Of a stretch of DNA of 64,000 bases, positions 9,898-58,097 are shown piece by piece. A program made the position numbers and the translations under genes. The DNA is from Paracoccaceae bacterium (lineage in GTDB: Bacteria; Pseudomonadota; Alphaproteobacteria; Rhodobacterales; Rhodobacteraceae), in NCBI GenBank assembly GCA_902631295.1, contig CACOXV010000005.1, positions 1 to 64,000 on the forward strand, read 5' to 3'. Below the pieces are notes generated by a model. The model made no database searches. It worked only from the letters and a program-made list of their open reading frames with translations, and was not told the origin of the DNA. The number at the start of each line of letters is the position of its first letter. Within the stretch, counting starts at the first letter, position 1.

Positions 9898-11076
9898 CTA
9901 CACATTCTCTATAATCACTGCGATTCCCTGGCCGCCGCCAATGCACATTGTCGCTAAACCATATTTCCCATTTTGACGCTTTAATTCGTAAACTAGTTTG
10001 GTCAAAATTATGGCTCCTGAAGCTCCAACGGGATGCCCTAAGGCTATTGCTCCACCATTTGGATTAGTTTGGGCCGGGTCAAAATCTAATTCACTTGCCA
10101 CAGCGCAAGCTTGCGCTGCAAATGCTTCATTTGACTCGATACAGTCAATTTGTGAAATGTTTAGTCCAGCATTAAATAGTGCCTCCCTCGTCGCTGGTAT
10201 TGGCCCAAGACCCATTAAATTCGGAGCCACTCCTCCAACCCCATATGATATAACTTTAGCCATAACAGGCATTGAGTACTTTGATATTGCAGACTTATTC
10301 GCGAGCACTAACGCAGAAGCTCCATCATTTATTCCTGATGAATTACCGGCAGTGACCGTTCCGTCGCGGTCAAACGCAGGTTTAAGTTTACTAAAATCTT
10401 GTAGGCTTACCTGTTCTCTGCAATGCTCATCTGTGTCAAAATATTCTTGTTTTTTACCTTTCTGGATTGCTACAGGCAAAATTTGTTCTTTAAAATAGCC
10501 GGCGTTAATTGCTTTATTCGCTCGCAGATGACTATTATATGCTAGCTCATCCTGTTTTTGTCGCGTTATACTCATTTCTTTCGCTACATTTTCGGCAGTA
10601 ATTCCCATGTGACCGTTTCCAAAGGGATCAGTAAGTGCTCCTGTCATCATATCAACTGCTTTTACATGTCCCATTTTCTGACCAAATCGAGCTGACTGCA
10701 AATTATGACCCACTCGGCTCATGCATTCTGCCCCCCCGGCCAAATTTACGTTTGAACGGCCTAATAAGATTTGCTCATATGCTGTAATCACAGCCTGTAA
10801 ACCACTACCGCAAAGACGATTTAACGTCAAAGCAGGAGCTTCTTGCGGTACTCCAGAGTTGATAGCAGCTACTCTCGATAAATACATATCTCGAGGTTCG
10901 GTGTGAATGACATTTCCAAAAACTGTTTGTTGAATTTTATCTGGAGTTATTCCTGCCCTATTAATCGCTTCCTTTCCCACTTGGGTTGCCAGTTCGATTA
11001 ATGGTACGCTCGAAAGAGATCCGCCAAAAGATCCTATGGCAGTTCTTACCGCCGAAGAGATAAATATATCGGTCAT
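9898..11076 (-). CDS. acetyl-CoA C-acyltransferase (thiolase)
   Basis: Condensing or degradative thiolase, transferring acyl groups to or from CoA. Active-site residues are visible: Cys89 in NRLCGSGLQAV, His in GGAIALGHPVGASGA, and the C-terminal CIGGGQGIAVIIE. Length of 392 aa fits the acetyl-CoA acetyltransferase/beta-ketothiolase family; exact substrate cannot be read from sequence. The ATG starts 2 bases after the rhodanese stop (TGAAATG). It is therefore the last gene of the methanethiol-oxidase operon. Confidence 0.9.
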   Translation of the reverse strand: MTDIFISSAVRTAIGSFGGSLSSVPLIELATQVGKEAINRAGITPDKIQQTVFGNVIHTEPRDMYLSRVAAINSGVPQEAPALTLNRLCGSGLQAVITAYEQILLGRSNVNLAGGAECMSRVGHNLQSARFGQKMGHVKAVDMMTGALTDPFGNGHMGITAENVAKEMSITRQKQDELAYNSHLRANKAINAGYFKEQILPVAIQKGKKQEYFDTDEHCREQVSLQDFSKLKPAFDRDGTVTAGNSSGINDGASALVLANKSAISKYSMPVMAKVISYGVGGVAPNLMGLGPIPATREALFNAGLNISQIDCIESNEAFAAQACAVASELDFDPAQTNPNGGAIALGHPVGASGAIILTKLVYELKRQNGKYGLATMCIGGGQGIAVIIENV

Positions 11077-11077
11077 T

Positions 11078-11473
11078 TCATCTATCCGTAATAGAACCGC
11101 TGTTTTTTATCCACTCTGTAATTCCACCGGCCATATTAACAACTGGCTTCAGTCCCATCTCTTTTGCTGCCACGGCTGATAGGGCAGAGCGTGCGCCAGA
11201 AGCACAATAAAAAATATAAGTTTTATCCTGGGAAAATTCAGATTTGTGTAAAGGGCTATCTGGATCAATATGGAATTCGATCATACCTCTTGATGATAAA
11301 ATAGCTCCTGGAATAACCCCTACATTTTGTTGTTCAGATAATTCCCTAACGTCTACAAATTGATATCTTTCGTTCTCAACCAATGATTTAGCTTCCTCAA
11401 CTGAAATTGAGTCTACTGACGCTAAAGCTTCTTTTACAATTTTTTTTACACTCGTACTGATAATTTGACCCAT
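11078..11473 (-). CDS. rhodanese-domain sulfurtransferase
   Basis: Single-domain rhodanese: moves sulfane sulfur via a persulfide on the active-site Cys, here about residue 90 in YCASGARSA. The upstream VDVREL is the other family landmark. The ORF track opens at 11536, but the ATG at 11473 (MGQIISTSVKK) is chosen because AAAAAGGG lies just before it. The extra 21 lysine-rich residues look like untranslated leader. It sits between a CoA-binding protein and a thiolase in the methanethiol-oxidase operon, which suggests handling of sulfur released from a methylated sulfur compound. Confidence 0.85.
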   Translation of the reverse strand: MGQIISTSVKKIVKEALASVDSISVEEAKSLVENERYQFVDVRELSEQQNVGVIPGAILSSRGMIEFHIDPDSPLHKSEFSQDKTYIFYCASGARSALSAVAAKEMGLKPVVNMAGGITEWIKNSGSITDR

Positions 11474-11554
11474 TTGGTACCCTTTTTTATTGGTGTATAT
11501 TTTTATGCCTTTTTTCAATGGGTATTTAGTTTGCAATCCGAAGTCATTTCAATA

Positions 11555-12019
11555 CTATATTTTGAGATCGAGCCTTGGTCTCCAAAAGGGCCTAAACAAT
11601 TCAATCTTTGGACACCTGTTCATAACAACTTTTAATCCTGCAGCCTCTGCCAATTCGGCAGCTCTGTCGTCATATACACCTATTTGCCCCCATAGGACCT
11701 TTGCTCCAACCTCAATAGCTTGTTCCGCTATTCCATAGAGTTCGTTTGCAGGTCGAAACACTTCTACCATATCAATTTGTTTCTCAATTTCTTTAAGTGA
11801 GTTGTAAACTCGAAGCCCACGTATCTCTTTAATTTCACGGTTTGGGTTTATAGGAAGTATGTCATATCCTATTTCGCTTAGTTGTCGTAAAACTCCATAG
11901 CTGAATTTTGTTTTGTCGCCACTAGCACCCACCATTGCAATCGTTTTTACTGATTTTAGTATGTCAGCGAGGTAACTTGGGTCGTAATCGTAAATGCGAT
12001 CTATTTCTGCTTCTGGCAA
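11555..12019 (-). CDS. CoA-binding domain protein (YccU type)
   Basis: A 154-aa Rossmann-fold protein of the CoA_binding_2 family: IAMVGASGDKTKFSYGVLRQL near residue 32 is the nucleotide-binding turn, followed by ILPINPN, VEVFRPANE and VLWGQIGVYDDRAAELAEAAGLKVVMNRCPKIE. Its biochemical role is not established in any organism I can name with confidence. It starts with TTG directly after the ferredoxin stop, with a strong AAGGAGG ribosome-binding site 8 bases upstream. The C-terminal NRCPK Cys is conserved in the family and could carry a thiol intermediate (inference). Confidence 0.82.
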   Translation of the reverse strand: MPEAEIDRIYDYDPSYLADILKSVKTIAMVGASGDKTKFSYGVLRQLSEIGYDILPINPNREIKEIRGLRVYNSLKEIEKQIDMVEVFRPANELYGIAEQAIEVGAKVLWGQIGVYDDRAAELAEAAGLKVVMNRCPKIELFRPFWRPRLDLKI

Positions 12020-12385
12020 TTATGTATCCTCCTTAGACGCAATATCAGATTTAAGCTGGTATGATTTTAATGGTTCTAAAAATGGATTACGGTACAATTT
12101 GTCATGACTTTCGGTACCTATTTCTAGTGTAATGTCCGACCTTGCTCTCGCAACGCATAAAATAACGTAGCCGTTATCTAGTTGCCAATTATTAAGAGCA
12201 ACTTGTCTTCTCTGGTCTATATTTCCCGCGGTTAACTTTGCGGCGCAAGTTATGCATCCACCGTACTTGCAACCGTAAGGAAGGTCCACACCGTGCCTTC
12301 GTAGTTCATCTAATATTGGTCGCTTGTCATCGACTTCATATTCCGCATTCCCGCGGTTTGAAATTTTAACCATATATTTTGTCAT
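12020..12385 (-). CDS. plant-type [2Fe-2S] ferredoxin
   Basis: Small electron carrier with cluster ligands Cys39, Cys44 and Cys47 (GCKYGGCITC) and Cys77 (VILCVA), the CX4CX2C...C pattern of plant-type ferredoxins. The ORF track opens at 12391. The ATG at 12385 is preferred because it overlaps the stop of the methanethiol oxidase gene (ATGA). A C-terminal tail of about 35 residues extends past the ferredoxin fold. Its tight coupling to the oxidase suggests electron transfer to or from that enzyme or a partner; the oxidase family itself is copper-dependent and not known to need a ferredoxin. Confidence 0.9.
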   Translation of the reverse strand: MTKYMVKISNRGNAEYEVDDKRPILDELRRHGVDLPYGCKYGGCITCAAKLTAGNIDQRRQVALNNWQLDNGYVILCVARARSDITLEIGTESHDKLYRNPFLEPLKSYQLKSDIASKEDT

Positions 12386-13737
12386 AACCATATATCGCTA
12401 GTGCAATCACCACCTGGGTAGCGAGCTTCATGGCATCTGCTAGGCCCATTTGGTTCTTGACCAAAGTTTACCATAAAATTTGGGTTAACTTTCATTCCAC
12501 CATTTACTGGATCGCAATCAATCTGAAGCATAACACCACCTTTTTCTCGTATTTCAGGGTAGAATTGATTGTCCCATGTTGAAAATAGAGATGTCGTTAC
12601 GTAAAGCCTTTTTCCATCCAAGCTTAGCTGGAACATTTGCGGACCACCAGCAACCTCAACTCCATTGACTTTTGGTGCTTTACCTAAAAGTCCTCCCATG
12701 AAAACTTGACCTGTGAGTACGGGTTTATGAGGATCGGTGATATCGTATTGTCTCATATCTCCGTGTAGCCAATTGTTAAGATATAAGTACTTGTCGTCCA
12801 TCGAAACAAGTATTGCTGACATAACGCCCGGAAGTGGAATTGGCCACTCTGGATGCATTTCATTTTCTATATCAATTACCTTTTCCCATTGCCATTTTTC
12901 ATCATTATCTTTCCACCAATGTATTACATTTGTGGAAAGTGCAGCCCCACAAAAACCATGAGTACTATCTGGGTTATGGTGAAATTTCACTTCTAAAGGG
13001 ACCAATCCGTCTTCGCCCAAATAAAAACTTTGTATAGGTTTTCGTTTCTCAAAATCCCAAAAGTGTAATTCACGTCCATACTTAAGGTGGCCCACTTCTT
13101 CAAGATCGAAACCAGGCATAAAAGTATTTGGTGCAGCCCACTCGGAACTTACCATAATATTGTGACGTGGTTGATACCAGAAATCATATCCAAATTTGAT
13201 ATCGCCCATGGAATTCTCCCAGCGACCCATTATTTTGAAATCTTTATCTAAATGGAGATACCCCCCTGGTGCTTCACCTTTTGCATTACCAAGGAATGAA
13301 ATAATTATATCGGATCCAAGACAGTGAACAGTATGAGGGCCGGACAAATCAGCCTTTGATTTAATTTCTGCTCCCTCAATAACTTTATAGAGTTTTGGAG
13401 CTTTAGGATCTGTTGCTGTATCAACAATATGAAGATTATTCGAGCGCACTCCTGGAAGAATTAAATATTTTCGAGACATTGAGTTATCGTCATGGCATGA
13501 AGAGCATGCATTCCAGCCCATATGGTGAAGCTCATCACCAATTCCGGGCATTTCAAGCCGATGAATAACCTGGCTATAAGTAACACTATCAGGGTCGACG
13601 TCTACAGTTGCGAGATAATCTGGTTTCTGGATCCCTGTACCGGTATATATTGCTATGGTATAAAGAAGTTTTTCACGTGGAGCATTTATGGCCTCGGCAG
13701 GTGATGCATAACCTGGTCCGCAACATACATTGTTCAT
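12382..13737 (-). CDS. mtoX: selenium-binding protein 56 family, probable methanethiol oxidase
   Basis: Members of this family (human SELENBP1, bacterial MtoX) oxidise methanethiol to formaldehyde, hydrogen peroxide and hydrogen sulfide, with copper as cofactor. The 451-aa protein is recognisable end to end: LHHMGWNACSSCHDD near residue 70, LPGVRSNNLHIVD, VKFHHNPDSTHGFCGAAL, LYVTTSLFSTWDNQFYPE and the ending RYPGGDCTSDIWL, which closely matches the mammalian C-terminus. There is no signal peptide, so a cytoplasmic location is likely. It is first gene of a five-gene operon (ferredoxin, CoA-binding protein, rhodanese, thiolase) and diverges from the DmdA-like operon. AGGAGG lies before the ATG. 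Confidence 0.9.
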   Translation of the reverse strand: MNNVCCGPGYASPAEAINAPREKLLYTIAIYTGTGIQKPDYLATVDVDPDSVTYSQVIHRLEMPGIGDELHHMGWNACSSCHDDNSMSRKYLILPGVRSNNLHIVDTATDPKAPKLYKVIEGAEIKSKADLSGPHTVHCLGSDIIISFLGNAKGEAPGGYLHLDKDFKIMGRWENSMGDIKFGYDFWYQPRHNIMVSSEWAAPNTFMPGFDLEEVGHLKYGRELHFWDFEKRKPIQSFYLGEDGLVPLEVKFHHNPDSTHGFCGAALSTNVIHWWKDNDEKWQWEKVIDIENEMHPEWPIPLPGVMSAILVSMDDKYLYLNNWLHGDMRQYDITDPHKPVLTGQVFMGGLLGKAPKVNGVEVAGGPQMFQLSLDGKRLYVTTSLFSTWDNQFYPEIREKGGVMLQIDCDPVNGGMKVNPNFMVNFGQEPNGPSRCHEARYPGGDCTSDIWL

Positions 13738-13976
13738 AAAAACCTCCTAATTACGGGCTTTCTTTTAACATATGTAAGAAAAATTAAAACTAACTTCAGA
13801 TATTTTTTTAAACGATGGAACACGGGATTTATTGTGATGTCAATTATATATGGTACGACAGTTACGTGTGGTAACTGAATTGCAAAGAATCTTTAAGAAT
13901 AATATTTATTGCATTGGCAAGAAAATAGCGGATGGTTGCTTTGTCGCCAAAGTCTAAGAATAGGAGCTAGATAATT
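13738..13976. promoter_or_regulatory. divergent promoter region between mtoX and the TPP/DmdA-like operons
   Basis: 239 non-coding bases serving two operons that start in opposite directions. AT-rich, with ATATATGGTAC and AATAATATTTATTG as possible core-promoter stretches that I cannot assign precisely. It contains the perfect inverted repeat annotated separately. Confidence 0.6.
13859..13877. promoter_or_regulatory. candidate operator, 7-bp inverted repeat
   Basis: CAGTTAC-GTGTG-GTAACTG: arms of 7 bases match perfectly across a 5-base spacer, placing arm centres 12 bases apart. That spacing suits a dimeric helix-turn-helix repressor. It sits near the middle of the divergent intergenic region, so one regulator could act on both operons. 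No regulator gene lies beside it. Confidence 0.5.
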
Positions 13977-15707
13977 ATGGTAGAAAAAACGCATCTTCGT
14001 GGCGGCGCTATTTTGGCCAGAGCTTTTAAAGAAAAAGGTGTTGACCATGTTTTCACGTTGGCAGGAGGGTTTTGTAATCCGGCCTTAGAAGGATTTATGG
14101 AATGCCAAATGCCTGTCATAAATTGTCCACACGAGCAAGTAGCAGGTCATCTTGCTGATGGTCACACGAGAATTTCACGGAAACCAACGGTTTGTCTTGT
14201 TGGTCCGGAGGGTTTCGCTAACGCAGTGCCAGCTATGTTAGAAGCTTGGGGGGAGCGATCACCAGTAATTTTCATAACTGGATCATCGACACTTAAACGT
14301 CAAGGCGCAGGAGGTTTTAAAGAAATAGATGATGTTGCGATTGCTAAACCATTAACGAAATACTCGGTTCAAATTACAGATGGGTCAAGGATAAGTGAAT
14401 TTGTAGATAGGGCTTGGCATGCTGCTACTAATGGATATCCAGGACCAGTCCATATTTCACTACCGGTCGATATAATGTTTTCCTCATTTGAAAAAAATGC
14501 TGGACTTAGTGAGCGTCCCTTTGATCGTTCTGATAAGGCGGTATTAAAAGCTTGGCCCAATCCGGTTGATTTATCGAACATTTTATCTTTGGTAAAAGGC
14601 AGTGATAGGCCAGTGATAATCGGTGGCCATGGAGTTTGGTGGTCGCAAACAGAACAAGCGCTAGCTTCGGCAGCAACGAAATTAAAAATACCAATCTTTA
14701 ACGTTCCATACCACACAAAATTACTAGGAGAAGATTGCAACGCCATGATGGGGCTTGCAGATTTTCATCAATATCACCCTTCTAAAGAAGCTATTCAAGA
14801 AGCGGATGTTATTTTGATGGTCGGATGTAAGCTTGATAACCAGATGAACTTTGGGAATCCACCATTTATCAGTAAAGATACTAAACTTGTCTGTGTAAAT
14901 GGAAGCCATGAAGAGTTAGAATATAATATTGGTGCAGATCTTCAGTTGTTATCAGATCCTGGAGCCTTTTTTAATGAGCTTATTAAAATTGAAAAAACAT
15001 GGGATGACTGGTTTGTTTTGCAAAAACAACGTAGATCCGACTGGGTGTCTCACTGGGCTGAACATATTGCGAAGGAAACCGAAGATGATCTAAAATTTGA
15101 TCGAAAAATGCATCCTTTGCAATTAGCGTTGGATGTTCAGTCTATGATGTCTGATGATGACTGGTTAGTTTTTGATGGAGGTAATACGCATTTCTGGAAT
15201 GAAATTGCTACTAATATTGCCGCCGCTGGCGGAAGAAAGCTCGGTGGCATACTTCATCCAGGAAATTATAGTCTGTTGGGTGTGGGAGTTTCGTTTGCGC
15301 TATCTGCAAAACGGGTCCATCCAAACACTAACGTAGTGTTAGTAACAGGTGATGGAGCATTTCTATCTGGTGGTTTGTCGGTTGAGACTTGTTTTCAAGA
15401 GGCTACCCCAATAATTGTTGTTATTGATAATAATGGGGGTCTAGATTGCATTAGTCAGCAACAGGAACGACTTTTTGAAAGTGGTCAACATTATGCAACC
15501 GATTTTCGCGATATTCCTTTTCATAAAATGTTTGAGGGTCTTGGTGGATTTGGCGAGCTCGTTACAAAACGTGAGCATCTTTCAGGCGCTTTTGAAAGAG
15601 CTTATAAAAGTGGAAAGACCGCTTGCATTAATGTAAAGTGTAGAGGGGTCATCAGCCCGATTGTGGCGGCAACTTCAGATAAAAGGGACAAGGCTTCGAT
15701 TGAATAA
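13977..15707 (+). CDS. thiamine-diphosphate-dependent enzyme (acetolactate synthase/decarboxylase superfamily)
   Basis: A 576-aa protein with the three-domain layout of the family: Pyr domain (residues ~1-170) with the cofactor-activating Glu53 in CPHEQVAGHLADG, a central domain (~190-330), and the PP domain (~370-550). The PP domain has the Mg/TPP motif VTGDGAFLSGG...VVIDNNGG. The reaction (2-oxo-acid decarboxylation, lyase or carboligation) cannot be read from sequence. Residues differ enough from IlvB and Gcl that I would not call it either. First gene of the operon: TAGGAG precedes the ATG, and the stop overlaps the next ATG (TAATG). Confidence 0.85.
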   Translation: MVEKTHLRGGAILARAFKEKGVDHVFTLAGGFCNPALEGFMECQMPVINCPHEQVAGHLADGHTRISRKPTVCLVGPEGFANAVPAMLEAWGERSPVIFITGSSTLKRQGAGGFKEIDDVAIAKPLTKYSVQITDGSRISEFVDRAWHAATNGYPGPVHISLPVDIMFSSFEKNAGLSERPFDRSDKAVLKAWPNPVDLSNILSLVKGSDRPVIIGGHGVWWSQTEQALASAATKLKIPIFNVPYHTKLLGEDCNAMMGLADFHQYHPSKEAIQEADVILMVGCKLDNQMNFGNPPFISKDTKLVCVNGSHEELEYNIGADLQLLSDPGAFFNELIKIEKTWDDWFVLQKQRRSDWVSHWAEHIAKETEDDLKFDRKMHPLQLALDVQSMMSDDDWLVFDGGNTHFWNEIATNIAAAGGRKLGGILHPGNYSLLGVGVSFALSAKRVHPNTNVVLVTGDGAFLSGGLSVETCFQEATPIIVVIDNNGGLDCISQQQERLFESGQHYATDFRDIPFHKMFEGLGGFGELVTKREHLSGAFERAYKSGKTACINVKCRGVISPIVAATSDKRDKASIE

Positions 15708-16042
15708 TGGCAAGTATTACCTCTCATATTCTAAACGGTACTGATGGAACCCATGCTAGGAAAATCCCAGCTAGACTTGTGGAATTAAAGTCGCAAAAGA
15801 TTTTGGTTAGTGGTGATACTGATGATGGTGGGCGTTTATCTTTGAAAATCAAACCTGAATATATTTATCCCTCAATGGCATGTGAGTTAGTATTTTCCTT
15901 GACGGAGTACTGGAAATTGAAAAACGTAACCGGGGGTATTGACGAAATTGCCTTAAGGTTTTCAATAAGTGAAGCAGAAAGTTCTTATCACCTTCCTGTG
16001 ATAATAAACCCCCATTCCTATTCTACATGGATCTCGCGTTAA
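15707..16042 (+). CDS. transthyretin-like / 5-hydroxyisourate hydrolase-like protein
   Basis: 111-aa homologue of the HIU hydrolase (transthyretin-related) family. Landmarks: N-terminal SHILNGTDGTHARKIPARL, DTDDGGRL, YIYPS, and the C-terminal YHLPVIINPHSYST. True HIU hydrolases end in YRGS, which is part of the active site; this one ends in WISR at the same place. The His of SHIL, the Arg of GGRL and the His of YHLP are retained. It lies between a TPP enzyme and a DmdA-like methyltransferase, with overlapping start and stop codons on both sides, and no uricase or OHCU decarboxylase is nearby. A substrate other than hydroxyisourate is therefore likely (inference). Confidence 0.78.
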   Translation: MASITSHILNGTDGTHARKIPARLVELKSQKILVSGDTDDGGRLSLKIKPEYIYPSMACELVFSLTEYWKLKNVTGGIDEIALRFSISEAESSYHLPVIINPHSYSTWISR

Positions 16043-17148
16043 TGAATGGTCTAAATATGTCAATTAGGCTTCGCAGAACGCCTTATACTGATCGGATTGA
16101 AAAATTAGGAGTTTCTGGTTTCTCTATTGTTAATCATATGCTTTTACCCAAAGCTTTCCAGTCGACCGTTGAAGAGGATTACTGGCATTTGAGGGAGCAC
16201 GTTCAAATTTGGGATGTTTCTTGCCAGCGACAGGTGGAAATCCAAGGCCCGGATGCCCAGAGATTGATACAATTGATGACACCAAGAAATATCGGAGATA
16301 TTGCTATTGGTGATTGTTTATATATTCCATTAATAGATGAAAATGCTGGGTTAATTAATGATCCGGTGTTATTGAAACTTTCTGAAGATAAATATTGGTT
16401 ATCAATTGCAGACAGCGATGTACTACTGTTCGCCAAAGGCCTCGCTTTTGGTAGAAAGCTTGATGTTAAAGTCAATGAGCCAGATGTATACCCGCTAGCT
16501 GTGCAAGGTCCGAAAGCTGAAAAACTGTTAACTGAGATTTTTGGACCGCATGTAAAAAATATTAAGTTTTTCAAGTTTGATTGGATAGATGTAAATGGGT
16601 CTAGTCAGTTAATTGCTCGGTCTGGTTATTCGCGTCAGGGTGGTTTTGAAATTTATTTAAAGGGTAAAGCTCATGCAAATTTTCTATGGGATATAATTTG
16701 GAAAAAAGGACAATCATATCAAATAGCGCCAGGTTGTCCAAATTTAATTGAGCGAATTGAAGGAGGCCTTTTTTCGTATGGAAATGAAATGACAATTGCA
16801 AATAATCCATTTGAAATTGGTTTGGAAAAATTTTGTGATTTGGATGGACCGATAGAGTATATTGGAAAAAGCAAATTGCTGGATATCCACAAAAATGGTG
16901 TGCAAAAGATTATTAGAGGATTTGTATTTGGTGAAACTCCTTGTCCAAACTGCTCCAAACCCTGGCGTGTCTATGCTAATGGGAAAGCCGTCGGCAATAT
17001 TACTTCAGCAATTTGGTCACCCCGCCTTAAAGCAAATGTAGCACAAGGCATGGTAGATAAAGATTATTGGAACATAGGGCAGAACGTCAAAATTGAAGTA
17101 CAGGATGGCTCTGAAATGATTGGCACTATAAAAGACTTTCCTCTTTGA
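16042..17148 (+). CDS. DmdA-like (GcvT-fold) tetrahydrofolate-dependent demethylase
   Basis: A GcvT/T-protein-fold enzyme that resembles dimethylsulfoniopropionate demethylase (DmdA) much more than glycine-cleavage T-protein: RRTPYTDRIEKLGVSGF, NHMLLPKAF, HVQIWDVSCQRQVEIQGPDA, LIQLMTPRN, LSIADSDVLL, RSGYSRQGGFEIYL and GCPNLIERIEGGLFSYGNEM all recall DmdA. DmdA passes a methyl from DMSP to tetrahydrofolate, leaving methylmercaptopropionate. The track start at 16027 overlaps the previous gene by 16 bases; the ATG at 16042 (TAATG overlap) is chosen, and 16057 (MSIRLRRTPY) is also possible. No dmdB, dmdC or dmdD lies in the window. It may be true DmdA or a paralogue acting on another methylated compound. 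Confidence 0.75.
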   Translation: MNGLNMSIRLRRTPYTDRIEKLGVSGFSIVNHMLLPKAFQSTVEEDYWHLREHVQIWDVSCQRQVEIQGPDAQRLIQLMTPRNIGDIAIGDCLYIPLIDENAGLINDPVLLKLSEDKYWLSIADSDVLLFAKGLAFGRKLDVKVNEPDVYPLAVQGPKAEKLLTEIFGPHVKNIKFFKFDWIDVNGSSQLIARSGYSRQGGFEIYLKGKAHANFLWDIIWKKGQSYQIAPGCPNLIERIEGGLFSYGNEMTIANNPFEIGLEKFCDLDGPIEYIGKSKLLDIHKNGVQKIIRGFVFGETPCPNCSKPWRVYANGKAVGNITSAIWSPRLKANVAQGMVDKDYWNIGQNVKIEVQDGSEMIGTIKDFPL

Positions 17149-17220
17149 CCCAAATGTGCACCCTCAAAATTCAAATAAATAGGTTTATAATTAAAAATAG
17201 TTTATAAAAAGGAAGTTAAG

Positions 17221-18720
17221 TTGTCTAATCGATCTCGTAGGCGACAGCAGAAAAAAGTTTCCCAGTCGGCAGAAAAAATAATTCCAAATACTGGTAGGCT
17301 GAAATTTTTTTCTGATGCGCAGTTGTGTTCAGTACACGATGCATCCTTGCAAATTTTGGAGACGATAGGTCTTAGTGACGCTCCAGAGGAAGCAATTAAG
17401 CTTGTTTGTGACAATGGTGGCAGTTTGACTGACAGCGGCCGGTTAACCTTCCCCCCGAAATTAGTGAATAAAGCAATATCTAATCTGAGAAAAAGCTTTA
17501 GGTTGTACGCTCGGGATAAAGACCAGAACTTAGATGTATCCGGATACAAAGTTCATACAGGCACTGGGGGTGCCTCGCCTATGATTGTGGATATGTCAAC
17601 GCATAATTTTCGGCAATCAATCTTGAGTGATTTATATGATGCATCTCGTTTGGTGGATAAACTAGATAATATTCATTTTTTTGCTCGACCTATGGTGGCC
17701 AATGATATGAAATCAAGTTTAATGTTGGACGTTAACACTGCCTATGCTGCGTTAGTCGGAACGTCAAAACATGTAATAAGTAGCGTTAGTGATGCCACCA
17801 ATGTCAAAACGGTGCACGAATTATGTTTAGTCATTGCTGGGTCTCATGAAAATTTCTATGAGCGACCATTCTTGTCGTTGAATATAAATCATGTCGTTCC
17901 GCCATTAAGATTTGATACAGAATCATGCAAAGTTTTAATTGAAGCATCGCGGCGTGGGTTTCCGGTTATGGTAAATACATTCGGTCAGATGGGTGCCTCG
18001 AGCCCCGTAACAATAGCTGGTTGCTTGGTTCAAACGAATGCTGAAACTTTGGCTGGTATGATTTTGGCGTGGCTAGCAAATAAGGATGTAAATGCCATTT
18101 ATGGTGCACGCCCCATGGTTACAGACTTGAGAACAGGTGGTATGGCTGGGGGAAGTGGGGAGCAATCTTTATTGACAGCAGCGTCAGTGCAACTCGCGCA
18201 GTATTATAATTTTCCTAATTCTACAATTTCTGGGGCTACCGATAGCAAACTTCCTGATAATCAGGCTGGTTATGAGAAAGCTCTTAATTTAACACTAGCG
18301 GTTCAAACCGGAGCTAATCTTATTACCCAAGCTGCTGGGACTCAAGCTGGTCTTATGGCGACATCATTCGAGGCTTACGTGGTCGATAATGAAATGTTGG
18401 GTGCGATCCTTAGTTCTGGGAAACAGATCGAAGTAAGTGAAGATACAATGTCTCTAAACACAATCAAAAACGTAGTGGAGGGTGAGGGGCATTTTCTGGG
18501 ACAATCTGAGACTTTTAAAAGAATGAGCACAGATTTTGTATATCCGGAAAATGCAGACAGACAGGCCTACGAGGCTTGGGTGGCCAATGGAGAGCCAAAT
18601 ATAAACACAAACGCAAAAATAAAAGTTGAAGAACTGTTAAAAGGACATAGGCCGAATTACATTCCAAATGATTTTGATACACAAATTCGAAAACAATTCG
18701 ACATAATGATTAGCATTTAG
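17221..18720 (+). CDS. MttB-family (non-pyrrolysine) corrinoid methyltransferase
   Basis: 499-aa member of the trimethylamine methyltransferase family (TIM barrel): ILETIGLSDAPEEA, HTGTGGASPMIVD, NTFGQMGASSPVTIAG, and GGMAGGSGEQSLL are visible. The reading frame runs through without an internal TAG, so unlike archaeal MttB it has no pyrrolysine. Such homologues demethylate quaternary amines (for example MtgB on glycine betaine), passing the methyl to a corrinoid protein. No MttC-like corrinoid carrier is encoded beside it. TTG start with GGAAG 5-9 bases upstream. The 72-base gap before it has no terminator, so it probably belongs to the operon. Confidence 0.85.
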   Translation: MSNRSRRRQQKKVSQSAEKIIPNTGRLKFFSDAQLCSVHDASLQILETIGLSDAPEEAIKLVCDNGGSLTDSGRLTFPPKLVNKAISNLRKSFRLYARDKDQNLDVSGYKVHTGTGGASPMIVDMSTHNFRQSILSDLYDASRLVDKLDNIHFFARPMVANDMKSSLMLDVNTAYAALVGTSKHVISSVSDATNVKTVHELCLVIAGSHENFYERPFLSLNINHVVPPLRFDTESCKVLIEASRRGFPVMVNTFGQMGASSPVTIAGCLVQTNAETLAGMILAWLANKDVNAIYGARPMVTDLRTGGMAGGSGEQSLLTAASVQLAQYYNFPNSTISGATDSKLPDNQAGYEKALNLTLAVQTGANLITQAAGTQAGLMATSFEAYVVDNEMLGAILSSGKQIEVSEDTMSLNTIKNVVEGEGHFLGQSETFKRMSTDFVYPENADRQAYEAWVANGEPNINTNAKIKVEELLKGHRPNYIPNDFDTQIRKQFDIMISI

Positions 18721-18732
18721 ACAGGTAAGATT

Positions 18733-19665
18733 ATGAAAGTCACTATTATTGGATTAGGTGCAATGGGGTCGATATATGCTGCTTTATTTGCAAACTCTGG
18801 TTTTGAAGTGATTGCATATGATCCATGGGTTGAGCACATCAATGCGATCAACGAAAAAGGCCTTTTAATTGAAAATCCAAATGGTAGTTACATTGTAAAA
18901 AATATTAATGCCTCCAGTATTTTTGAAGCACATGACGATTGTAATTTTTATATTATCGCCACGAAAGCATCTGGCGTTGAGAGTGCTGCAAGAGAAATAT
19001 CTCCATTTTTAGGGCCAAATGCTACTGTGGTTACAATCCAAAATGGATTAGGCGCAGAAGAAAAATTAACGAAATTCATTGAGCGTGAGCATATCGTTTT
19101 GGGTGTGGCTGACGGTTTTGGGGCCTCAGTTAAAAATCCAGGCTATGTTCACCATAATGCGATGAAGCTTATACGACTTGGTGAGCTAACTGGTGAAATC
19201 ACAGAAAGGCTTCAAAAACTCACCAGCCATTGGGTCAAGGCCGGGTTTAATGTACAGTCCTATCATGATATACAAAAACTAATATGGGAAAAATTTTTAT
19301 GTAATGTCACGTTTAGTGCACCATGCACAGTTTTTGAAAAGACCGTTGGTGAGCTGATGGACGACCCTAGTGCATGGCCTATCGCATTGGGCGCAATGTA
19401 TGAAGCATATAAAATTGGAATAGCAAAAAAAATTGATTTCAGTTTTAATGACCCAGTTGAATATGTTTCTAAATTTGGAACTAACCTTCGCAATGCTCGT
19501 CCATCTATGTTTTTAGATCATCTAGCAAATAAACGGTCAGAAATTATGTTTATAAATGGCAGAGTTCCAAGTCTTGGAAAGGAAGTAGGAGTTCCCACAC
19601 CGTTTAATTCAACTTTGACTGCCTTAATTCTTAATAGAGAAAATCAATTTGTGGATACGATATAA
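18733..19665 (+). CDS. ketopantoate reductase (ApbA/PanE)-family oxidoreductase
   Basis: 310-aa NAD(P)-dependent reductase of the 2-dehydropantoate reductase family. N-terminal Rossmann motif GLGAMGSIYAALF (residues ~7-19), TIQNGLGAEEKL with the conserved Asn, and the C-terminal signature IWEKFLCNVTFSAPC. The family includes pantothenate-pathway enzymes and many catabolic reductases of 2-oxo or 3-oxo acids. Here the operon context favours a catabolic role. AGGTAAG precedes the ATG, and the stop overlaps the next ATG by one base (TAATG). Confidence 0.85.
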   Translation: MKVTIIGLGAMGSIYAALFANSGFEVIAYDPWVEHINAINEKGLLIENPNGSYIVKNINASSIFEAHDDCNFYIIATKASGVESAAREISPFLGPNATVVTIQNGLGAEEKLTKFIEREHIVLGVADGFGASVKNPGYVHHNAMKLIRLGELTGEITERLQKLTSHWVKAGFNVQSYHDIQKLIWEKFLCNVTFSAPCTVFEKTVGELMDDPSAWPIALGAMYEAYKIGIAKKIDFSFNDPVEYVSKFGTNLRNARPSMFLDHLANKRSEIMFINGRVPSLGKEVGVPTPFNSTLTALILNRENQFVDTI

Positions 19666-20507
19666 TGAATATCGGATCCTTTGTAACAAAAGAAAAAGAA
19701 ACTTATGGAATATTTTTTGATGATTACGCACAATCCGTTACCGATGATTTTATTAGAGAATATAGAAATCTAAGAGAGGTAATTGAGAGAAAATCTACCC
19801 CCCTTATGTATGAAAATGCATTGAGCACTCCAAAGTTAAAGCATAATAAAATAAAGTTTTTGCCCCCGATTGTTAACCCAACTAAAATTATCTGTATTGG
19901 CATGAATTACCATAAACTGTATCCAGTTGACGGAAAAAGTCTCAGCAATCCAGAAAATATAATTTTGTTTGGTAAAAATAGTGAGGCGCTGCTGGCTCAC
20001 AATGAAATTCTAGAAATTCCTGCTGGAGATGCTTCTGATAGCTTTGACTATGAGGGCGAAATAGCCGTAGTTATTGGAACCCAAGCGCGAAACGTATCTG
20101 TTTCTGACGCAGACGACTTTATATTTGGGTTCTCGGCCTTTAACGATGGTTCAGTACGCGATTGGCAGTCGCATTCAATATATGCTGGCAAAAACTTTTC
20201 TGGTTCTGGATCTTGGGGCCCATGGATAACGCCTCTGGAAGATTTAACCGATCTGAGAGATTTAGAATTAACTGTATTTCTAAATGGAGAAGTTGTTCAG
20301 AAAGCTACGAGTAATGATATGATTTTCAGTATACAGGAGCAAATCTCCTATATCTCCAGTATTATGACCTTAAATCCAGGAGATGTTGTAGCAACTGGCT
20401 CTCCCGATGGAACAGGGGCAAGTTTTAACCCAAAACGTTTCCTAAAGGCTGGGGACGAGTTAGAAATTCAAGTAAGTAAAGTAGGTAGTTTAAAAAATTC
20501 TATTTGA
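19665..20507 (+). CDS. fumarylacetoacetate hydrolase-family protein
   Basis: 280-aa protein with the FAH C-terminal domain: KIICIGMNYHKLY near residue 75, metal ligands in SFDYEGEIAVVIG, FNDGSVRDWQ, and the closing GDVVATGSPDGTGAS. The family hydrolyses or decarboxylates acylpyruvates and related 2-oxo acids, or hydrates 2-oxo-pentenoates, using Mg. As last gene of the operon it suggests that the pathway ends in small 2-oxo acids. Exact substrate is unknown. The gene runs into convergent hisE with only 17 bases between them. Confidence 0.88.
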   Translation: MNIGSFVTKEKETYGIFFDDYAQSVTDDFIREYRNLREVIERKSTPLMYENALSTPKLKHNKIKFLPPIVNPTKIICIGMNYHKLYPVDGKSLSNPENIILFGKNSEALLAHNEILEIPAGDASDSFDYEGEIAVVIGTQARNVSVSDADDFIFGFSAFNDGSVRDWQSHSIYAGKNFSGSGSWGPWITPLEDLTDLRDLELTVFLNGEVVQKATSNDMIFSIQEQISYISSIMTLNPGDVVATGSPDGTGASFNPKRFLKAGDELEIQVSKVGSLKNSI

Positions 20508-20524
20508 TTAAGCATAGATAATTA

Positions 20525-20836
20525 TCAGGTGCTGCGGGATTTTTTCTCTTCAATTCCAGATATATTTTTACGCCTCTTAAGCTCATCTGTTATCTCTGTA
20601 AGAGTTACCCCATTTGCATGAAGCATAACAACAAGATGGTATAATAAATCTGCAGTTTCATGTATTAGCTCACTTTTATTTTTTCTGGTTGCCGCTATAA
20701 TGCTCTCGATAGCCTCTTCCCCAAATTTCTCAGCGCATTTGTCTGGTCCTTGTGATAATAGCTTGGCTGTCCAACTGATTTCTGGATCGCTTTCTGCACG
20801 AGCTTGAATAATTTCAAATAAATCATCAATTTTCAT
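20525..20836 (-). CDS. hisE: phosphoribosyl-ATP pyrophosphatase
   Basis: Second step of histidine synthesis: hydrolyses PR-ATP to PR-AMP. The 103-aa protein shows the MazG-like alpha-helical motif KFGEEAIESIIAA...ELIHETADLLYHLVVML, in which the acidic residues bind Mg. Three bases separate it from the hisF stop, so it is last gene of hisA-hisF-hisE. The monofunctional form (not fused to HisI) is usual in alphaproteobacteria. Confidence 0.95.
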   Translation of the reverse strand: MKIDDLFEIIQARAESDPEISWTAKLLSQGPDKCAEKFGEEAIESIIAATRKNKSELIHETADLLYHLVVMLHANGVTLTEITDELKRRKNISGIEEKKSRST

Positions 20837-56057: not shown

Positions 56058-58097
56058 CTAAGCCCGTCTTCGTCGTCGCCGGCCCAATTTCCCGTTTTTT
56101 TCGGATAAAGCGTTAAAAGAAGGGTTAGGAATTTGTACCAATTTATTTAGTTCTGTAAATGGGTCAGTCTTATGAGGTATGGCGTTAGCAGCTACAAAAT
56201 GCTCTTGGAACTTTGGTTCTACAGCGGTTTCTACTTTTGTAATTTTGCCTACTATTTCTTCGATACCAGCCCGTGCGTTTATGTTGCAAAGAGCAATTCT
56301 GGCACCAGTACCGGCAGCATTTCCGGCCGAGGTGACATTTTCAAGTGAGACATCAGGTATCATACCCAAAATCATTGCATGTTTAGACGAAATATGCGCC
56401 CCAAAGGCTCCTGCTAAAACAACTTTGTCAACACTATCAACACCCATTTCATCCATTAAGAGCTTTGCCCCAGCATATAATGCGGATTTTGCCAGTTGTA
56501 TTGCCCTGATGTCTCCTTGAGTAACTTGAATTGCAGGTTGAGATGCGTCGTTGCTATTGTGCAGTTGGTAAGAGTAAGTTCGCCCATTAGGTTTTGATCT
56601 TGGAGTTCCAGTTGCCTCAGGGCTTCCAATCAACCCACTTTCGTCGAGAAGTCCAGCAACTCGCATTTCTGCCACGGCTTCAATTATTCCGGAGCCACAT
56701 ATTCCTGTTATGCCAATTTTTTCTATACTGTCGTCAAAGCCAATTTCGTCTGACCATAGTTCAGATCCAATTACTTTAAACCTGGGCTCTTTGGAAATTG
56801 GGTCAATCTCCACTCTCTCTATTGCCCCAGGTGCGGCCCTCTGTCCTGAGCTGATCTGTGCACCTTCAAATGCTGGGCCAGTTGGAGATGAGCAGGCTAG
56901 TACCCGTTTTGTATTTCCCAACAATATTTCTGCATTAGTGCCAACATCAACAATTAGGACTAAATCTTCTGATTTATTCGGTTGTTCAGATAAAGCTACA
57001 GCAGCGGCATCTGCTCCAACATGACCAGCAATACATGGCAACAGGTATATTCGCGCATCATCAATCAATGACAACAAACTTAAATCTTTAGCATTTAGAT
57101 ATATTGACTGTGAAGTTGCTAAAGCAAATGGGGCCTGACCCAGCTCTGCCGGATCAATTCCAAGCAACAAATGGTGCATAACTGGATTGCAGACAAAAAC
57201 AGCCTCAAGTATATCTTCTTTATTTATACTAGCACTTTCTGCCAGATCTATGACTAATTTATCAATCGCTTTTCTGACTTCGGCGGTCATTGCCTCTGCT
57301 CCGTCTGCATTCATCATCGCGTAGCTGACACGGCTCATCAAATCCTCACCAAACCGGATTTGTGGATTCATAACTCCAGAACTTCCAATTACTTTTCCTG
57401 AACCTAAATCGGTTAAATGCGCTGCGATAGTAGTTGATCCCAAATCTATTGCTAACCCATAAATGCTGGCGTCATGGTAACCTGGCCAAATTTTTATAAT
57501 TCTTGAAATATTTTCGCTTGGAATCGAATTAACTGCCACAGTTACACTCCATTCGCCCTTGCGAAGAATGCTTTGGAGTTCTTTAACAATTGATAAACTA
57601 GCGTCTAGTTGATCTATCTTCCATTGTTCTGACAAAGCTGTTTTTAAGCGTTCTAGGTCACCCTTCGGTTCGTGCATGTCGGGTTTGAGAACCTCAACAT
57701 AATACAATTTTGTTGCAGGATTCATTTCGATATGTCGGGAGCTGGCAGCTTTTCTTATTACTTGCTTATGGACCTGACTTTCTGCTGGCACGTCCACGAC
57801 CAAATCACCTTGAATTTTTAGTTGACATCCCAATCTGCGATTAGGTTTTAAACCTCGCTTATCGTGATATCGTTGCTCGATTGCATTCCAAGTTGAAACT
57901 GCACTTTGATCTACTGAAACACCATGTTTTGGAAAATCTCCAAATGAAGGTGTTACTTGGCATTTACTGCAAATTCCTCTTCCGCCGCAAACACTATCTA
58001 AATCTACCCCAAGTTTTTGAGCGGCCTCCAATACGGGTGTTCCAGTCTCAAATTGCCCGCGTTTTCCAGATGGAGTGAATACTACCAAATGCTTCAT
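56058..58097 (-). CDS. RACo-like reductive activator of corrinoid proteins (DUF4445/ASKHA with [2Fe-2S] domain)
   Basis: 679 aa: an N-terminal ferredoxin-like domain with Cys37, Cys43, Cys46 (CGGRGICSKC) and Cys91 (LGCQL), a linker domain, then the ASKHA-type domain. The latter shows GLAIDLGSTTIAAHLTDL, LILIVDVGTNAEI-like VLIVDVGTNAEILLG, ITGICGSGIIEAVAEM and VVLAGAFGAHIS. RACo/RamA-type proteins reduce inactive cob(II)alamin on corrinoid proteins back to Co(I), using ATP. A genome carrying an MttB-family methyltransferase is expected to need one. The C-terminus is Arg-rich (LGRRRRRRA). Confidence 0.85.
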   Translation of the reverse strand: MKHLVVFTPSGKRGQFETGTPVLEAAQKLGVDLDSVCGGRGICSKCQVTPSFGDFPKHGVSVDQSAVSTWNAIEQRYHDKRGLKPNRRLGCQLKIQGDLVVDVPAESQVHKQVIRKAASSRHIEMNPATKLYYVEVLKPDMHEPKGDLERLKTALSEQWKIDQLDASLSIVKELQSILRKGEWSVTVAVNSIPSENISRIIKIWPGYHDASIYGLAIDLGSTTIAAHLTDLGSGKVIGSSGVMNPQIRFGEDLMSRVSYAMMNADGAEAMTAEVRKAIDKLVIDLAESASINKEDILEAVFVCNPVMHHLLLGIDPAELGQAPFALATSQSIYLNAKDLSLLSLIDDARIYLLPCIAGHVGADAAAVALSEQPNKSEDLVLIVDVGTNAEILLGNTKRVLACSSPTGPAFEGAQISSGQRAAPGAIERVEIDPISKEPRFKVIGSELWSDEIGFDDSIEKIGITGICGSGIIEAVAEMRVAGLLDESGLIGSPEATGTPRSKPNGRTYSYQLHNSNDASQPAIQVTQGDIRAIQLAKSALYAGAKLLMDEMGVDSVDKVVLAGAFGAHISSKHAMILGMIPDVSLENVTSAGNAAGTGARIALCNINARAGIEEIVGKITKVETAVEPKFQEHFVAANAIPHKTDPFTELNKLVQIPNPSFNALSEKNGKLGRRRRRRA

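Follow-up and report, generated by a model that had tools for sequence, protein, structure and literature searches.

The window analysed here, positions 1 to 64,000 of contig CACOXV010000005.1 from a Paracoccaceae bacterium (assembly GCA_902631295.1), carries on its forward strand, between positions 13977 and 20507, a block of six genes encoding, in order, a thiamine diphosphate (ThDP, also TPP) enzyme, a transthyretin-like (TTR) hydrolase, a DmdA-like demethylase, an MttB-superfamily methyltransferase, a PanE/ApbA-family oxidoreductase and an FAH-family protein. The block consists of two separable modules, TPP–TTR–DmdA and MttB–PanE–FAH, and the first belongs to a core that in other genomes usually comprises a flavin mononucleotide (FMN)-dependent α-hydroxyacid oxidase (HAOX) followed by the TPP, TTR and DmdA-like genes. 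We give roughly even chances to the reading that the window holds one form of a modular gene cluster by which marine bacteria break down a methylated onium compound with a carbon skeleton that bears, or is converted to, an α-hydroxy acid. Every gene family involved is known; the new part is the arrangement, a variant of onium-demethylation catabolic clusters, of which no description turned up in the literature open to searching, a body that misses most subscription journals. The carriers are abundant ocean heterotrophs (SAR11, SAR116 and Rhodobacteraceae), and the cluster probably draws on a phytoplankton metabolite, to which that literature assigns no genes, to feed the pools of one-carbon units and sulfur. 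The trio of hydroxyacid oxidase, TPP enzyme and hydrolase of the 5-hydroxyisourate hydrolase (HIUase) fold provides a compact and testable handle on the substrate.

Composition and conservation of the cluster

The first-pass annotation had described six forward-strand genes of the above families with overlapping or close starts, and this is borne out by the coordinates and by Pfam, all six assignments exceeding the cut-off. The TPP gene (13977..15707; 576 aa) matches the N, M and C domains of TPP_enzyme and is followed by genes for the HIUase-fold hydrolase (15707..16042; 111 aa; Transthyretin) and the GcvT-fold folate demethylase (16027..17148; 373 aa; GCV_T and GCV_T_C). The second module opens with a non-pyrrolysine corrinoid methyltransferase (17221..18720; 499 aa, with a TTG start as listed; MTTB), continues with the PanE/ApbA-family NAD(P)-dependent 2-hydroxyacid/2-oxoacid oxidoreductase (18733..19665; 310 aa; ApbA and ApbA_C) and ends with the FAH-family protein, which resembles acylpyruvate hydrolases and decarboxylases (19665..20507; 280 aa; FAA_hydrolase). 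Spacings between successive genes are −1, −16, +72, +12 and −1 nt. Downstream, the block meets a his gene in convergent orientation at 20525, and upstream lies the start of a divergent SBP56 gene at 13737; the 239 nt between the two divergent operons (13738..13976) presumably contain their promoters.

The window genome is a draft Rhodobacteraceae genome, about 70% complete, whose nearest named relatives are the single-cell genome AG-457-F15 and the metagenome-assembled genome (MAG) MED-G08. The same six-gene order is present in both, in a further near relative (G011) and in a Tateyamaria MAG (locus L143). As the order is kept in these genomes, with near-relative orthologues of the six genes being 76–97% identical, it is not a product of chance.

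A scan of the TPP enzyme against 85,462 species genomes returned 144 relatives, and neighbourhoods were counted for the best 80 of these, together with their flanks, after open reading frames (ORFs) had been called and clustered. These 80 loci, 69–97% identical to the window TPP enzyme, are distributed over Rhodobacterales, Rhizobiales, Rhodospirillales-type groups, SAR116, SAR11 and a few gammaproteobacteria. In 60 of the 80 the TPP gene is immediately preceded by an HAOX gene (PF01070); a TTR gene lies downstream in approximately 75 by targeted reading (64 by simple ORF calling), and a DmdA-like gene downstream of the TPP–TTR pair in 63. It is on these frequencies that HAOX–TPP–TTR–DmdA is recognized as the core. 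All six families of the window occur within ∼10 kb in only seven loci (L093, L094, L097, L104, L119, L125 and L143). The proposal of a single six-gene unit thus stands in part: its order is kept in relatives and each module recurs elsewhere, but the exact run is rare, the usual core includes an HAOX that the window lacks, and SAR11 and another genome, G197, maintain the core without MttB.

The upstream oxidase is missing in the window clade and in the Tateyamaria MAG. Four loci (L096, L113, L114 and L132) have a GlcD-type FAD oxidase gene after a TPP–TTR pair and, close by, a gene for a TctA transporter. Within ∼10 kb of the 80 TPP genes the recurrent companions are LysR regulators (36 loci), Dpp-type ABC importers (28), S51 peptidases (28), TRAP transporters (20–23), MttB (14), PanE (11), SBP56 (8) and FAH (7). 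After the DmdA-like gene, locus L129 carries a pyridoxal phosphate (PLP)-dependent enzyme of the cystathionine γ-synthase/methionine γ-lyase type, with a gene of the same size at that position in L130, and SAR11 an IlvE aminotransferase gene. The TPP enzyme had no match in the plasmid collection.

The DmdA-like demethylase, the TPP enzyme and its hydrolase partner

The DmdA-like protein of the window passes the NCBIfam model for the demethylase of dimethylsulfoniopropionate (DMSP), NF009133, with 539.7 bits against a cut-off of 410, and its best solved relative is the SAR11 enzyme DmdA (SAR11_0246, PDB 3tfh), at 47% identity. Its TPP-linked relatives, SAR11 copies included, are ∼41–50% identical to 3tfh and, outside close relatives, 54–66% identical to the window copy. 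They share with DmdA, including the enzymes of Rhodobacteraceae dmdA–acuI loci, the GcvT fold and the folate-binding architecture. In a maximum-likelihood tree of 102 rows, however, all 64 TPP-linked copies fall into one clade (support 97/92) apart from canonical Rhodobacteraceae DmdA, the sister placement of 3tfh to this clade being weak (85/69). Two positions in 3tfh numbering accompany the split: at residue 32 all 64 TPP-linked copies have V where all 13 canonical DmdA have Y, and residue 329 is R in the former and D in the latter. The genomic setting differs as well, a TPP–TTR operon taking the place of acuI. In MED-G08 an operon of the window type coexists with a canonical dmdA (656 bits) that adjoins acuI, and sister genomes carrying the core contain further DmdA-type genes.

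The separate clade, the different neighbourhood and the coexistence with a true dmdA–acuI make the annotation doubtful: the clade probably acts on an onium substrate other than DMSP, and 'DMSP demethylase' is probably a misnomer for the window gene. In support of the first-pass annotation, which held that DMSP alone does not explain MttB, the DmdA-like enzyme probably does not serve its lineage as DMSP demethylase. Estimates of DMSP demethylation based on dmdA could be inflated, since automatic annotation gives this gene that name. Paralogues of aminomethyltransferase with unknown substrate, one of them close to DmdA, have been listed in SAR11 (PMC3160333). A candidate marker of DMSP specificity, W197 to Y, looked diagnostic on a pooled set but was dropped because Y is found in 63/64 TPP-linked copies and also in 10/13 canonical Rhodobacteraceae DmdA. 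W197 of 3tfh would correspond to the DMSP residue named in one study under the alignment number 171 (PMC7487153).

The TPP enzyme belongs to a highly conserved family, with a mean column identity of 80%. At an E-value of 1e-110 solely close family members passed the searches, in 6 of 385 genomes of the class and 12 of 148 relatives, and the same searches returned no homologues between the family itself, at at least 65% identity, and general TPP enzymes at approximately 30% or less. Its closest PDB relatives are oxalyl-CoA decarboxylase, 2-hydroxyacyl-CoA lyase (HACL) and benzaldehyde lyase, and it fails the NCBIfam models for both OXC and HACL, scoring 173–201 bits against cut-offs of 557–739. 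The AlphaFold model is of moderate quality (predicted local distance difference test, pLDDT, 76) and no result rests on it. An FMN α-hydroxyacid oxidase gene directly before a TPP enzyme gene recalls the mandelate pathway, in which FMN-dependent mandelate dehydrogenase is paired with the TPP enzyme benzoylformate decarboxylase. The closest solved relatives of HAOX are lactate oxidase and (S)-mandelate dehydrogenase. In contrast with that pathway, the TPP enzyme of the cluster lies nearer the oxalyl-CoA decarboxylase, HACL and benzaldehyde lyase group, and the genes after it encode a hydrolase and a demethylase where the mandelate pathway has an aldehyde dehydrogenase. With a hydrolase for its constant partner, the TPP enzyme may release a formyl or acyl derivative instead of a free aldehyde, as in one of the rival readings below.

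This hydrolase has a confidently predicted model (pLDDT 96) with the HIUase/transthyretin fold (TM-score 0.80–0.85). The HIUase catalytic residues H9, R47 and H98, as in HiuH and PucM, are invariant in 76/76 TTR-like proteins, but P18 is replaced by H, and the YRGS tail by W-x-S, with W at position 111 in 76/76. The window protein also scores below the NCBIfam 5-hydroxyisourate hydrolase cut-off (63.6 against 87.45). A purine route was rejected: no urate-pathway genes were seen beside the gene, where HiuH-type enzymes have them and the cluster has the TPP partner, and the YRGS tail is lost. The first-pass annotation had considered heterocyclic betaines such as homarine or trigonelline, degraded through ring opening. 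This idea finds no support in a hydrolase that has kept the HIUase catalytic residues but lost the HIUase tail, and that is constantly paired with a TPP enzyme from the oxalyl-CoA decarboxylase/HACL group.

SAR116 loci L136 and L138 contain a variant cluster in which PhyH-type genes, the TPP–TTR pair, an NTF2-like gene and NuoEF/formate dehydrogenase genes occur without DmdA or FMN oxidase. Locus L096 has a TauD-type dioxygenase gene after GlcD.

The MttB module and the divergent SBP56/rhodanese operon

MttB–PanE–FAH adjoins the core in a minority of loci: it stands beside it in the window clade and the Tateyamaria MAG, while L097, L104, L119 and L125 have it close by in a different layout. 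PanE follows MttB in most linked loci, and in the Silicimonas loci the MttB–PanE pair is convergent. Two complete SAR116 genomes (G249 and G417; MttB identity 51–52%) have a PepE–MttB pair beside LysR and HAOX–TPP–TTR–DmdA, together with either a Dpp importer or a transporter of the TRAP type.

The window MttB matches PF06253 over its full length (residues 3–490, 371.6 bits). Core-linked MttB proteins form one clade (support 85/99), distinct from the MttB that is common across Rhodobacteraceae, with the copy of L169 unresolved; the clade also includes, on a long branch, an unlinked MttB–PanE pair of sister genomes. The window MttB is probably not the glycine betaine enzyme, in keeping with the first-pass annotation, which looked beyond glycine betaine; the tree includes no characterized MtgB of Ruegeria pomeroyi. 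Like MtgB/MtgCD of that organism (PMC12478193) and the MttB-superfamily enzymes of Eubacterium, it contains PF06253 without pyrrolysine and has a corrinoid protein and an activator elsewhere in the genome; unlike them, it falls in a separate clade and is co-located with PanE, FAH and the HAOX–TPP–TTR–DmdA core. The corrinoid protein (PF02607 and PF02310) is encoded on another contig of the window genome (C45). On the reverse strand of the window, at 56058-58097, lies a gene for a RACo-type corrinoid-protein activator, in which the middle, linker and C-terminal domains of RACo are present; this agrees with the use of corrinoid methyltransferases in this genome. In R. pomeroyi the demethylation of glycine betaine requires MtgC and MtgD. 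Ruegeria genomes are reported to have as many as seven MttB-like ORFs, which share MtgC/MtgD and for which other methylated substrates have been suggested (PMC12478193).

The core-carrying SAR11 genomes tested and genome G197 have no PF06253 gene, and neither G197 nor three SAR11 genomes tested have a PF02607 protein. The position of MttB is occupied in G197 by a homocysteine S-methyltransferase gene and a second GcvT-fold gene, and in SAR11 by a second GcvT-fold gene. As these organisms run the core without MttB or corrinoid protein and with other methyltransferase-type genes in place, MttB fits the role of an optional corrinoid-dependent demethylase of the same pathway.

A number of further methyltransferase genes were seen. 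The ∼2 Mb draft of the window genome encodes five more MttB-family paralogues, one on contig C5 (66938-68338) and the others on contigs C2, C16, C19 and C24. A separate family of GcvT-fold proteins of ∼407 aa is encoded upstream of the core in SAR11 and G197 (L156, 6153-7376, and other SAR11 loci; L232, 6628-7857; L109), accompanied in G197 by a homocysteine S-methyltransferase gene. In locus L087 (3827-10511), and likewise in L086, L088 and L089, a diverged MttB–PanE pair comes after genes for MBL-fold, cNMP-binding and class III cyclase proteins, and is followed in all four loci by a gene whose 427-aa product matches nothing in Pfam or NCBIfam.

Divergent from the six genes, and missed by the first-pass annotation, runs a linked reverse-strand operon of methanethiol oxidase and rhodanese type (9898-13737). 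It encodes the SBP56 family protein (12382..13737), a 2Fe-2S ferredoxin (12020..12391), which follows SBP56 in other core loci too, a CoA-binding protein (11555..12019; CoA_binding_2), a rhodanese-domain protein of the sulfane sulfur transfer family (11078..11536) and a BktB-like β-ketothiolase (9898..11076). The SBP56 sequence ends in GGDCTSDIWL, the motif cysteine being C445, and GGDCT is found in 8/8 complete core-linked copies, that of the window included. In cluster-1 methanethiol oxidases (MTOs) of Rhodobacteraceae the GGDC(S/T) motif is catalytic, and these enzymes yield sulfane sulfur and formaldehyde (PMC10936201). With these MTOs and with MtoX (PMC5739008) the window protein shares the SBP56 family, this motif and a conserved histidine, but it scores below the MtoX cut-off, and in place of SCO1/MauG it has ferredoxin, CoA-binding, rhodanese and thiolase genes around it. 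A rhodanese beside SBP56 fits the production of sulfane sulfur; oxidation of methanethiol and uptake of the sulfane sulfur are the most likely tasks of the operon. Versions of this module are near the core in L095, L106, L114, L127, L140 and L151 as well as in the window clade. Across 61 relatives, SBP56 of the window type and the TPP enzyme occur together in eight genomes, TPP alone in two and SBP56 alone in four (Fisher p = 6.6e-6, uncorrected for relatedness).

Proposed pathway, candidate substrates and rival explanations

The earlier view of a catabolic unit for a methylated compound is supported by the gene families, their conserved linkage, the separate DmdA-like clade, the corrinoid protein in the genome and the MTO motif, and from these we infer the reactions, their order and the class of substrate. 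The onium compound would be imported by one of the recurrent importers, and the DmdA-like enzyme would transfer a methyl group of the onium centre onto tetrahydrofolate; where a lineage has a corrinoid protein, a methyl group may also leave via cobalamin, through the MttB paralogue and a shared MtgC-type corrinoid protein. The α-hydroxy acid would be oxidised to a 2-oxo acid by the FMN oxidase in most genomes, by GlcD or Ldh2 types elsewhere and plausibly by PanE in the window. This acid would then be decarboxylated or cleaved by the TPP enzyme, whose product the HIUase-like protein would hydrolyse, and degradation of the skeleton would be completed by FAH and, in the neighbours, by acyl-CoA enzymes. 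Methanethiol, which is probably released, would be oxidised and its sulfur recovered by the SBP56/rhodanese operon.

Since methanethiol is the most likely substrate of that operon, we favour for the cluster as a whole a dimethylsulfonium α-hydroxy acid rather than DMSP. The obvious candidate would be 4-dimethylsulfonio-2-hydroxybutyrate (DMSHB), an intermediate of DMSP synthesis; any single compound can be named only tentatively. In the accessible literature, most subscription journals aside, no account of the cluster was found under DMSHB catabolism, gonyol, betaine lipids or HIUase in SAR11. DMSHB would explain the α-hydroxy acid, the S-methyl groups, the Cys/Met PLP enzyme of L129, the IlvE of SAR11 and the MTO. 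Several observations weigh against this interpretation. DMSHB leaves the specificity of MttB, the TTR protein, PepE and FAH unexplained, and to our knowledge the characterized MttB-family enzymes use quaternary ammonium rather than sulfonium compounds. Natural DMSHB has the D configuration, and members of the FMN oxidase family are as a rule specific for L forms. The core loci share no conserved aldehyde dehydrogenase gene downstream of the TPP gene. The window SBP56 is far below the NCBIfam MtoX cut-off (NF052453; 154.6 against 650), and two TPP-positive draft genomes, 69–75% complete, are without SBP56. The W197 position, moreover, is non-diagnostic.

A doubtful alternative is a quaternary ammonium (trimethylammonium) compound with an α-hydroxy acid or peptide-like part, from which MttB or a homocysteine methyltransferase would take the first methyl group and GcvT-fold enzymes the next, SBP56 being a bystander or a general thiol oxidase. 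Such a substrate would accommodate the linkage of an MttB clade to the core, the substitute methyltransferase genes in G197 and SAR11 and the recurrence of Dpp importers and S51 peptidases. However, direct transfer of the DmdA type requires a good leaving group, the cluster has no conserved amine oxidase, most loci have no MttB nearby, and the recurrent SBP56/rhodanese and Cys/Met enzymes would be left unexplained. A rather unlikely scenario assigns to HAOX–TPP–TTR the removal of a glycolyl or glyoxylyl unit from a heteroatom: X-CH(OH)-COO− would be oxidised to X-CO-COO−, decarboxylated to X-CHO by the TPP enzyme, which resembles oxalyl-CoA decarboxylase, and split by the HIUase-like protein into X-H and formate, the demethylases trimming X. 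The proximity of the TPP enzyme to oxalyl-CoA decarboxylase and HACL, the amidohydrolase-type fold encoded where an aldehyde dehydrogenase might stand, the PhyH-type dioxygenase and formate dehydrogenase genes flanking the pair in L136 and the TauD-type dioxygenase beside GlcD in L096 are in its favour; yet formate dehydrogenase serves any one-carbon oxidation, simple hemiacetals would break up without enzymes, and no substrate is known.

Catabolism of DMSP itself, with the DmdA-like enzyme demethylating it and the other genes handling downstream or related metabolites, is improbable. The NF009133 score, the SAR11 DmdA as best solved relative and the adjacent MTO-like gene are set against the separate clade with its Y32V replacement in every copy, the canonical dmdA–acuI of MED-G08 and the other DmdA-type genes of sister genomes, and the DMSP route has no place for an α-hydroxyacid oxidase or a TPP decarboxylase. 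Still more remote is the view that functionally unrelated operons have drifted together. In its favour, the exact six-gene run is confined to close relatives of the window and one Tateyamaria MAG, but the two modules are found together in varied arrangements, orientations and taxonomic orders, and the linked MttB and DmdA-like copies each form clades of their own.

Returning to the onium α-hydroxy acid reading, a wider and tentative proposal is that such acids (sulfonium, possibly ammonium) are demethylated by interchangeable enzymes, namely folate-dependent DmdA-like, corrinoid-dependent MttB and homocysteine methyltransferase, and that their carboxyl end is stripped by FMN oxidase, oxalyl-type TPP decarboxylase and HIUase-fold hydrolase, a trio not previously linked; much of the dmdA counted in SAR11, SAR116 and roseobacters may belong to it.

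Two minor observations concern the oxidases. In Labrenzia/Roseibium (L096 and L132) two TPP copies are neighbours, one with the FMN oxidase and the other with the GlcD-type oxidase, as if serving both enantiomers of a 2-hydroxy acid. A hydroxyacid oxidase gene on contig C34 of the window genome (336-1439; L214) was considered as the relocated core oxidase and rejected: it is 43–47% identical to the core family, stands beside a split TPP decarboxylase and is probably part of a different pathway. The FMN hydroxyacid oxidase at this locus and at L215 and L216, all of the same genus, adjoins a two-gene TPP decarboxylase whose N and C domains are separate ORFs, possibly a second 2-hydroxyacid pathway.

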